Source of the DNA: Pseudonocardia sp. HH130629-09
GTDB lineage: Bacteria > Actinomycetota > Actinomycetes > Mycobacteriales > Pseudonocardiaceae
Length of the DNA: 64,000 nucleotides
Assembly (NCBI RefSeq): GCF_001294645.1
Contig: NZ_CP011868.1
Span: 1,674,001 to 1,738,000 of the forward strand
Direction of reading: 5' to 3'
A model generated the notes under the pieces. That model was not told the origin of the DNA, did not search any database, and saw only the letters and a list, made by a program, of their open reading frames with translations. Shown piece after piece: positions 15,072 to 16,949 of the stretch. How positions within the stretch are numbered: the first letter of the stretch is position 1; each line of letters opens with the position of its first letter. The translations under genes and the position numbers were made by a program.

Positions 15072-15980
15072 ATGAGCACCGACGCTCCCGCCTTCACCGA
15101 GATCTCCTACGACGTCGACGACCGGGTCGCCACGATCACCCTCGACCGTCCGGACCGGCTCAACGCGTTCACCGCGACGATGGCCCGCGAGCTGATCGCC
15201 GCCTACGACCGCGCCGACGCCGACGACACCGTCCGCGCGATCGTGCTCACCGGCCGCGGCCGCGGCTTCTGCGCCGGCGCCGACCTGGGCCGCGGCGGCT
15301 CCTCGTTCGACCCGACCGACCCACAGCGCGCCGCGGACCGCGCGGGCGTCGGCACCATCGGCGGCGTCGTCCGCGACGGCGGCGGCACCGTGACGATGCG
15401 GATGGCGGCGTTGCGCACCCCGGTGATCGCCGCCGTCAACGGGCCCGCGGTCGGCATCGGGGCGACGATGACGCTGCCCGCCGACATCCGCCTCGCCGGC
15501 TCCTCGGCCCGGTTCGGGTTCGTGTTCGCCCGCCGTGGGCTCGTCCCGGAGGCCGCGTCGAGCTGGTTCCTGCCCCGGATCGTCGGGGTCTCCCGGGCGA
15601 TGGAGTGGGCCGCGACGGGCCGGGTGTTCGACGCCGCCGAGGCCCTCGACGGCCGGCTGGTCTCCCGTGTCCTGCCCGACGACGAGCTACTCGGCGCGGC
15701 GTACGCGATCGCGCGCGAGATCGCCGACAACACCTCGGCGGTGTCGGTCGCGCTGACCCGGCAGCTGCTGTGGGGGATGCTCGGCGCGCCCAGCCCGTGG
15801 GACGCCCACCGCGCCGACTCGGCCGCGATCGCGCACCTCGGGCAGGGCCGCGACGTCGCCGAGGGCGTCACGTCGTTCCTGGAGAGGCGCCCGCCCGCCT
15901 TCCCCGACACCGTCTCCGAGGACTACCCCGGCCACGTCCTGCCGCACTGGCCCGCCCCGCCCGCCGACCTGACGGACTGA
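15072..15980 (+). CDS. Enoyl-CoA hydratase/isomerase (crotonase) family protein
   Basis: The protein is 302 aa. The crotonase fold is shown by ATITLDRPDRLNAFT, the first oxyanion-hole block GRGFCAGADLGRG and the second, NGPAVGIGATMTLPADI. The central insert DPQRAADRAGVGTIGGVVRDGG and the LVPEAASSWFLPRIVG block match a common actinobacterial acyl-CoA hydratase group. It acts on a 2-enoyl-CoA, and chain specificity is unknown. It begins 25 nt after the DUF1990 gene and could be in the same transcript. Confidence 0.9.
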   Translation: MSTDAPAFTEISYDVDDRVATITLDRPDRLNAFTATMARELIAAYDRADADDTVRAIVLTGRGRGFCAGADLGRGGSSFDPTDPQRAADRAGVGTIGGVVRDGGGTVTMRMAALRTPVIAAVNGPAVGIGATMTLPADIRLAGSSARFGFVFARRGLVPEAASSWFLPRIVGVSRAMEWAATGRVFDAAEALDGRLVSRVLPDDELLGAAYAIAREIADNTSAVSVALTRQLLWGMLGAPSPWDAHRADSAAIAHLGQGRDVAEGVTSFLERRPPAFPDTVSEDYPGHVLPHWPAPPADLTD

Positions 15981-16011
15981 AATCCGGGTGCGCCGGCGCC
16001 CCCGGCGCCCC

Positions 16012-16172
16012 TACCGTGCCCCCGTGGCCTCGATACGCCTGCGCGTCGCCCGACGGCGGCGCCACACCTGATCCCTGCCGATCTCCTGGCGCCGCCGTCC
16101 GAGCAGCCGGTCCTCGTACCCCTGCCGGGCGGCGCCCCGCCGCGCCCCCGGCTCCCCACCCGGGAGCCTCCA
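16012..16172 (+). promoter_or_regulatory. Candidate erm translational attenuator
   Basis: Four pieces line up. A TACCGT -10-like hexamer lies at 16012-16017. A 15-codon leader frame with an RLR motif occupies 16024-16071. CGGCGGCGCC (16054-16063), inside the leader, is perfectly complementary to GGCGCCGCCG (16088-16097), which can alternatively pair with 16127-16136. A 7-bp stem, GGCTCCC (16150-16156) with GGGAGCC (16162-16168), buries the Shine-Dalgarno GGGAG of the methyltransferase gene. This is the architecture of drug-inducible erm leaders. Folding and induction have not been tested. Confidence 0.6.
16024..16071 (+). CDS. Putative erm leader peptide (15 aa)
   Basis: GTG-initiated short frame reading MASIRLRVARRRRHT followed by TGA. 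The Arg-Leu-Arg triplet at residues 5-7 matches the macrolide-stalling RLR motif known from the ErmD-type leader peptides. The predicted transcription start, about 7 nt after the TACCGT hexamer, falls on the GTG itself, so the message may be leaderless. The methyltransferase gene starts 101 nt after the leader stop. Translation is inferred from position and motif. Confidence 0.5.
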   Translation: MASIRLRVARRRRHT

Positions 16173-16949
16173 GTGCGATCCCCTCTGCCACGTCCGCTCG
16201 GCCGTCACGAGCACGGCCAGAACTTCCTCGTCGACGACGCCGTCCCGGCCGCGATGGCCGCCGTCGTCGCCGGGTACCCGCCCCGGCCGCTGCTGGAGCT
16301 GGGCCCCGGTGACGGCGCGCTGACCGCCGCGCTGCTGCGCCTGCCCGGCAGGCCCCTGACCGCGGTCGAGCTCGACCCGTACCGGGTGGCCCGCCTGCGA
16401 CGACGCTTCGGCGACGCCCTCACCGTCGTCCACGGCGACCTGCTCGACGTCCGCCTGGACCGGCCCGTCGACGTGGTGTCCAACGTCCCGTTCGCCCTGA
16501 CCACCCCACTGCTGCGACGCCTGCTGGCCGCCCCGCGCTGGGCGCACGCGCTGGTGCTGGTGCAGTGGGAGGTCGCCCGCAAGCGGGCCGCGGTCGGCGG
16601 CACCAGCGCCCTCACCGCCCGCTGGTGGCCGTGGTTCACCTTCACCCTGCACGACCGGGTCCCGGCCAGGGCGTTCCGGCCGGTCCCGGCCGTCGACGGC
16701 GGGGTGCTGGAGATCGCCCGCCGGGAGGTGCCGCTGCTCGACGCCCGGCCCCGGGACCACCACCGGATCGTCGACGCGGTGTTCACCGGCCGTGGCCGCG
16801 GGGCGGTCGACGTCGTCGGGCGGCGGTTCGGCCGCGCGCTGGCACGGGACTGGGCGCGCGAGTGCGGGCTCGGGCCGCGGACGCTGCCGCGTGACCTCGA
16901 CGCGGGACACTGGGTCCGGCTGCACGCCCGGGTGGCCGGGCGGAGGTGA
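16173..16949 (+). CDS. erm: Erm-type 23S rRNA (adenine-N6)-methyltransferase
   Basis: The protein is 258 aa. It methylates a 23S rRNA adenine (A2058 equivalent) with S-adenosylmethionine, which blocks macrolide, lincosamide and streptogramin B binding. Visible motifs are GRHEHGQNFL (10-19), the AdoMet loop LELGPGDGAL (41-50), AVELDP and the catalytic block NVPFALTTPLL (104-114). HEHGQNFL distinguishes Erm proteins of actinomycetes from KsgA. The GTG at 16173 follows GGGAG with 6 nt spacing, inside a stem. Resistance is therefore likely intrinsic and possibly inducible. Confidence 0.88.
   Translation: MRSPLPRPLGRHEHGQNFLVDDAVPAAMAAVVAGYPPRPLLELGPGDGALTAALLRLPGRPLTAVELDPYRVARLRRRFGDALTVVHGDLLDVRLDRPVDVVSNVPFALTTPLLRRLLAAPRWAHALVLVQWEVARKRAAVGGTSALTARWWPWFTFTLHDRVPARAFRPVPAVDGGVLEIARREVPLLDARPRDHHRIVDAVFTGRGRGAVDVVGRRFGRALARDWARECGLGPRTLPRDLDAGHWVRLHARVAGRR

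Follow-up and report, generated by a model that had tools for sequence, protein, structure and literature searches.

An erm gene of Pseudonocardia sp. HH130629-09 is preceded by a very short reading frame that encodes Arg-Leu-Arg, and the locus raises the question of whether this frame and the RNA that follows it form a macrolide-responsive switch and, if so, in which direction the switch runs. We examined the locus within a window of 64,000 nucleotides (NZ_CP011868.1, positions 1,674,001 to 1,738,000, forward strand); coordinates below count from the first base of this window.

The erm Gene and Its Homologues

16173..16949, + strand: erm methyltransferase gene, GTG start; Erm46 profile E 4.8e-68, Erm(38) structure entry E 5.4e-58

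Judged by profile matches over most of its length, the product of 16173-16949 is an Erm-type rRNA methyltransferase. The Erm46 profile aligns to residues 10-253, and the best solved-structure relative is Erm(38). A broad Erm model narrowly missed its cut-off (score 207.2 against 212), and single-type Erm models scored far below theirs. The genome encodes one further homologue (G000:C1:4594021-4594806, L002; 35% identity), presumably RsmA/KsgA-like, which has no Arg-x-Arg (RxR) leader frame within 450 nt.

Erm matches at 1e-20 occur in 26 of the 62 genus genomes and 168 of the 390 family genomes; several family genomes have two among the matches listed. Pairs of erm loci are also found in a Propionibacteriaceae MAG (L041/L042), Enteractinococcus helveticum (L038/L058), and Micrococcus terreus (L076/L080). 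For comparative analysis, 208 loci were collected and 194 kept as non-redundant, after dropping the RsmA-like L002, a partial match (L027), a locus at a contig end (L068), and 11 loci with identical 200-nt upstream sequence. The set excludes family places below about E 1e-39 and the partial matches G066, G320, and G321. Because the window Erm served as query, with the best 80 of 130 kept in one search, producer-type Erm (ErmE, ErmS) is under-represented. The closest relatives form a clade of eight, the window and seven Pseudonocardia orthologues (71-94% identity).

A Conserved Leader Frame with an Arg-x-Arg Motif

16024..16071, + strand: leader frame MASIRLRVARRRRHT, GTG 16024 to TGA 16071, 15 codons, RLR at codons 5-7
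16036..16044, + strand: Arg-Leu-Arg codons, read directly; Leu6 (16039-16041) predicted to occupy the P site of a stalled ribosome, by analogy with ErmDL

An earlier note on this DNA had described a 15-codon frame with Arg-Leu-Arg at residues 5-7 and proposed an RLR-type attenuator before erm, possibly on a leaderless transcript; it held that loss of the frame or of RLR in close relatives would count against the idea. The frame is present as described, both features are kept in all eight clade members, and the proposal is supported. The clade leaders differ in length. Five members end at an early TGA; the window, L003, and L004 have CGA in its place (window positions 16051-16053), which adds 6 or 7 codons through the stretch called segment 1 below.

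To place this leader among related loci, we scanned 280 nt upstream of each erm for an ATG or GTG frame of 5-35 codons starting 5-9 nt after a TANNNT box. Such a frame follows the box in 183 of 194 loci, with a gap of 6-8 nt in every case, and contains RxR in 169. The same scan hit 50 (9 with RxR) of 5302 control windows placed elsewhere in these loci, drawn from loci of at least 2500 bases only, and 223 (38 with RxR) of 3880 shuffles. Widening the search to 450 nt recovered a frame in four of the 11 misses, three of these with RxR; the remaining seven had no strict leader at 450 nt either. A first-pass scan, later superseded by this stricter one, had found R[LV]R frames in 69/106 loci versus 195/3066 control windows.

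The motif is RLR in 101 of the 169 loci, RIR in 20, RPR in 16, RTR in 14, and RDR in 8. It is written by 46 different 9-mers (RLR by 19), with CGN or AGG codons for the first Arg. Given so many codon spellings, the leader peptide rather than the nucleotide sequence is most likely under selection. The leader thus appears to be a conserved short frame with a drug-stall motif before erm, whose translation and stalling are predicted.

Several leaders depart from this pattern. In eight loci (L014, L019, L020, L022, L043, L089, L096, and L103), found in Pseudonocardia, Actinokineospora, and Nesterenkonia, RxR is replaced by Pro-Trp or Leu-Trp (IRPW, TRPW, IRLW, SKPW, ARPW), perhaps a second recurrent stall motif. 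Leaders reading ..FMRPLTSR or ..FMRPLTNR (L090, L092, L097, L101, L104, L105, L108), from several Corynebacterium, Pseudoglutamicibacter, and Gleimia loci, lack the RxR of the similar ..FLRLRTNR leader of L094. L114 has two leader-like copies in tandem upstream of erm, the first a full RIR frame and the second partial, with its own stop and a segment-1-like stretch. In three Tsukamurella leaders (L049, L064, L072), of which MSSSAAAAAAAAAVVDRGRA is one, RGR comes after a long run of alanines. The erm of Mycolicibacterium sp. P9-22 (L061) is preceded by MGAPSVAVTRIRRF, a leader of the leaderless type; this is relevant to the view that mycobacterial erm genes are without uORF control.

A WhiB7-Type Promoter and a Probable Leaderless Transcript

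15979..15984, + strand: WhiB7/WblC box GAAATC, exact match to GAAAWY in the expected register; putative binding site
15988..15993, + strand: putative -35 element GTGCGC, 3 nt after the box, placed from the spacing in PMC7157823 and aligned promoters
16012..16017, + strand: -10 box TACCGT; the leader GTG follows after 6 nt, with a predicted leaderless start at 16024

The earlier note had overlooked the GAAATC box, which shares bases with the stop codon of the enoyl-CoA hydratase gene lying upstream. A GAAAWY box 3 nt upstream of the -35 element is described as the WhiB7/WblC signature (PMC7157823), and an AT-rich motif next to the -35 element is reported at WhiB7 promoters (PMC3905903). In several actinobacteria, intrinsic macrolide resistance and erm are reported to be under WhiB7 control (PMC3905903, PMC13393426), as is erm(38) of M. 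smegmatis (PMC13393426), and WblC is described as controlling an Erm(O)-type gene (PMC7157823). The M. tuberculosis complex erm(37) has been called an exception to uORF control (PMC4128351).

The GTGCGC hexamer is a weak -35 match, and a promoter and terminator scan of 15900-16400 returned neither a sigma-70 consensus promoter nor a terminator. With the loci aligned on their -10 boxes, two blocks stand out, one rich in A and one at -35 resembling GGTTGC/GGTGCG, a pattern similar to the WhiB7/WblC signature. Among the 183 loci with leader frames, the WhiB7 box occurs in register exactly in 51 and with at most one mismatch in 112, compared with 16/8706 and 433/8706 at control positions. A WhiB protein encoded in the genome (L219) carries an RGRPRK AT-hook, and we take it to be WhiB7-like. 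With GAAAWY 3 nt before the -35 element and such a protein in the genome, the promoter has the features expected of the WhiB7 regulon. Since only 6 nt separate the -10 box from the GTG, the transcript very likely starts at the first base of the leader, 16024, and is leaderless.

Alternative Pairings between the Leader and the Shine-Dalgarno Sequence

16043..16050, + strand: segment 0, pairs with 16055-16062; predicted OFF
16052..16064, + strand: segment 1, pairs with 16087-16099; predicted ON
16087..16111, + strand: segment 2, pairs with segment 1 (ON) or 16118-16134 (OFF)
16118..16135, + strand: segment 3, pairs with segment 2 (OFF); 16124-16135 pairs with 16142-16152 (ON)
16142..16156, + strand: segment 4, 16142-16152 pairs with segment 3 (ON); 16150-16156 pairs with the Shine-Dalgarno (SD) strand (OFF)
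16162..16168, + strand: segment 5, GGGAGCC, holds the erm SD GGAG (16163-16166)

The pairings claimed earlier are borne out by the sequence and prove to be part of a longer series. The 10-nt complementarity of 16054-16063 (CGGCGGCGCC) with 16088-16097 is perfect and extends to 13 bp (16052-16064 with 16087-16099). The alternative partner placed at 16127-16136 is real and overlaps the 3' arm of an interrupted 16-bp stem, 16093-16111/16118-16134. A stem does cover the SD (7 bp, 16150-16156/16162-16168). Missing from the earlier account were a leader hairpin of 8 bp, 16043-16050/16055-16062, and a stem of 11 bp, 16124-16135/16142-16152.

Each segment can therefore pair with its neighbour (0:1, 8 bp; 1:2, 13 bp; 2:3, 16 bp interrupted; 3:4, 11 bp; 4:5, 7 bp), and two alternative sets are possible, {0:1, 2:3, 4:5} and {1:2, 3:4}. 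The predicted stems would be mutually exclusive, with one lying over the SD. In the window, 3:4 and 4:5 overlap at 16150-16152 only, so their mutual exclusion is partial; because just three bases are shared, the last step would weaken the SD hairpin without abolishing it, and it is the weakest in the series. At gathering thresholds, Rfam returned nothing at the erm leader; its sole match in the window is an Actino-pnp RNA (RF01688) elsewhere, at 349-412 (71.5 bits).

Predicted Stall Geometry and the Direction of the Proposed Switch

Ribosomes arrested on ErmDL stop with the Leu of Arg-Leu-Arg positioned in the P site (PMC8298421). By analogy, a ribosome stalled on the present leader would hold 16039-16041 in the P site and cover the RNA to about 16054-16056. 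Segment 0 would then be masked completely, and segment 1 over its first 3-5 bases only. The usual toeprint distance sets the 3' edge of the ribosome. Because segment 0 would be masked and most of segment 1 left free, a stall would favor 1:2 rather than break it.

We computed the cost of opening the SD after removing RNA up to a moving ribosome edge, with positions given relative to the P-site codon, for 168 of the 169 RxR loci (L010, with no start/SD call, was left out). For the window, opening the SD takes 9.4 kcal/mol when no ribosome is present, 7.9-9.7 when the free RNA begins at -9 to +3 (7.9 at -9), and 7.2-7.4 kcal/mol at the stall edge (+5 to +17); the cost rises to 10.5 at +19 and to 12.8 kcal/mol at +23 to +31, once the ribosome has moved past. 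The mean of the 168 loci goes from 6.39 without a ribosome and about 5.4-5.7 at -9 to +3 to a minimum at +7 to +13 (4.63 at +13), then 4.94 at +15, 5.45 at +17, and 6.37 at +23. Since removal of any 5' RNA already lowers the cost, as seen in the family mean at -9 to +3, the dip is shallower against these edges than against the ribosome-free state. The difference between +23 and +13 averages 1.74 over the 168 loci, compared with -0.06 when the RNA between the leader and the SD hairpin is shuffled; it exceeds 1 kcal/mol in 108/168 loci versus 16% of shuffles and falls below -0.5 in 11/168 versus 28%.

The earlier note had suggested folding the region with and without a ribosome. In such folds the SD cost falls at the stall edge, yet the SD stays paired at equilibrium, with a mean accessibility over the 168 loci of 0.13-0.19 wherever the ribosome is placed and a value in the window that never exceeds 0.06. 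Equilibrium folding is uninformative for ON versus OFF, since every state contains the SD hairpin. Folding truncated transcripts ending before the SD revealed no clear stall effect on the anti-SD strand, and segment 4 was not sequestered; the SD hairpin is present in 119/168 loci in this model.

Conservation of the Pairings

In the clade, folding predicts 0:1 in 8/8 members, the stalled state 1:2 plus 3:4 in 8/8, and the passed state 2:3 plus 4:5 in 7/8. The exception is L009, whose SD, in the OFF fold, pairs with RNA lying upstream and not in 4:5. Compensatory stem changes, a check named in the earlier note, did not emerge: pair counting in seven clade sequences (L009, misaligned by MAFFT, was left out) gave no covariation beyond shuffles. 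The clade offers no useful covariation because the stems hardly vary.

Across the family, we asked how often a segment pairs better with its own partner than with foreign ones, using 57 clusters and one random draw from each other cluster. The own partner was better for segment 1 with downstream RNA in 45/57 clusters (p 1.3e-7), for the SD strand with upstream RNA in 43/57 (5.5e-5), and for segment 0 with segment 1 in 42/57 (3.1e-5), while the negative control, segment 0 with downstream RNA, gave 25/57 (0.51); these p-values are optimistic because the 57 clusters are related to one another. For the window alone, its own segment 1 ranked first, with zero foreign partners as good, whereas 25% of foreign partners matched its 0:1 pairing and 34% its SD pairing.

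OFF folds of the 168 loci pair the SD directly with segment 2 in 88, place it in a separate local hairpin in 30, which include seven clade members, and do neither in 50. The commonest form is thus the four-segment ErmC logic, 0:1 plus 2:SD against 1:2. The two-step part (1:2 and 2:3) passes in 140-150/168 loci versus 33-58% of shuffles. A full ladder throughout the family was ruled out, as it passes in only 14-21/168 loci versus 2.5-5.7% of shuffles; at threshold 4, only 5/8 clade members pass, and the relay is partly threshold-sensitive. On these folds, the window clade appears to add a relay step to the common four-segment logic.

A Proposed Mechanism and Its Alternatives

Taken together, we propose that this erm gene, with its conserved RLR frame and competing RNA pairings, is likely governed by a translational attenuator that responds to macrolides, on a transcript that is probably leaderless and probably activated by WhiB7 (probability roughly 0.74). 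Its assignment to the class of macrolide-responsive erm attenuators is supported by conservation and modeling. Transcription would be the first lock, as the promoter box suggests, with WhiB7 activating transcription from 15979-16017 and the RNA beginning at the leader GTG. In the absence of drug, the ribosome would run off the leader, 0:1 would re-form, and 2:3 and 4:5 would form, hiding the SD. With a macrolide, the ribosome would stall with Leu6 in the P site and cover segment 0; segment 1 could then capture segment 2, and segment 3 capture segment 4, weakening the SD hairpin so that Erm is made. The 2:3/3:4 step would make this a six-segment relay, whereas the commonest relatives place segment 2 directly on the SD strand and need only four segments.

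The opposite direction was assumed in the earlier note, in which pairing of the leader with 16088-16097 is the OFF form, a stalled ribosome masks it, and the resulting 2:3 pairing frees the SD. The same complementarities would serve this layout, and ErmC is usually drawn with masking of the proximal strand, which counts in its favor. A ribosome with Leu6 in the P site, however, leaves segment 1 mostly uncovered, and it is there that the SD is cheaper to open. Masking segment 1 raises the window SD cost to 12.8, against 7.2-7.4, and gives folds that contain 2:3 together with an intact SD hairpin 4:5. The on/off assignment thus looks inverted, with pairing to 16087-16099 as the predicted ON form, and we regard the original layout as improbable. 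We give equally little credence to the idea that WhiB7 transcription alone controls erm and that a leaderless promoter yields the leader frame as a by-product, or that the frame is a relic. The exact box, the WhiB7-like protein in the genome, and the published WhiB7 control of erm (PMC3905903) and erm(38) (PMC13393426) are all compatible with it, as is the description of erm(37) as an exception to uORF control (PMC4128351). Neither a by-product nor a relic would readily fit RxR in 169/194 loci, in many codon spellings, versus 9/5302 control windows, or segments that fit their own partners and a dip in SD-opening cost that is lost on shuffling.

A stall that acts through mRNA protection or transcript elongation instead of SD release seems unlikely as well, if marginally less so. 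The SD is never predicted to be open, and for one erm leader expression is reported to follow mRNA stability independently of stalling (PMC5118997). Against it stand the lack of a terminator-like site in 15900-16400 and the presence of an SD hairpin whose opening cost varies with ribosome position.

The more interesting outcome is the broader picture with two locks. The balance of evidence tips slightly toward a general design for the Erm(38)/Erm(46)/Erm(X) kind of erm gene in actinobacteria, an AND switch with two locks. A WhiB7 promoter would respond to ribosome stress in general, and a leaderless Arg-x-Arg leader would then test whether a macrolide in the tunnel is the cause before Erm is made; the Pseudonocardia clade would have stretched this design to a six-segment relay driven by one leader. 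If both locks work, the arrangement would explain how a costly rRNA methylase stays off during non-macrolide stress. The natural leader series (RLR, RIR, RPR, RTR, RDR, and others), on transcripts probably without a 5' untranslated region, could be used to compare drug specificity.

Comparison with Known Systems

The principle of a leader peptide and a drug-stalled ribosome is described for erm translational attenuation (PMC6685928), and the same source describes pikR1/pikR2 of a Streptomyces producer as inducible. Such a leader in a non-pathogenic, producer-related actinomycete had seemed little described to the earlier note. This is fair for the present clade, but the corynebacterial erm(X) leader peptide has been predicted to act by translational attenuation (PMC3350403), and WhiB7 control of erm is known (PMC3905903). 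Among open-licence PMC papers, we found none that describes erm under a WhiB7 promoter together with a leaderless RxR leader. The promoter resembles those of the WhiB7/WblC regulon in having GAAAWY 3 nt upstream of the -35 element, whereas the regulon accounts, in the passages concerned, describe no leader-peptide lock on erm (PMC3905903, PMC7157823).

The leader shares Arg-Leu-Arg with ErmDL, on which the ribosome stalls with Leu in the P site, ahead of Arg; the ErmDL passages treat stalling, not an RNA layout of the present kind (PMC8298421). In ErmDL, RLR is required for stalling with telithromycin and dispensable with erythromycin (PMC8298421). Like erm(X), the window has a short leader before an actinobacterial erm, and it differs from erm(X) in its peptide (..IRLRVA.. 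in the window clade), its stems, and its relay step. Several loci in our set, which we take to be erm(X)-like, carry ..LRLRSR.

The ermC translational attenuator has a four-segment layout. The arrangement proposed here resembles it in its leader peptide, its drug-stalled ribosome, and the stem exchange that hides or frees the erm SD; in both, the exchange would begin when the 5' arm of the first hairpin is masked. The differences from ermC lie in the transcript, probably leaderless and driven by WhiB7, in the stall motif, Arg-x-Arg, and in the segments, of which the window clade would use six instead of four.
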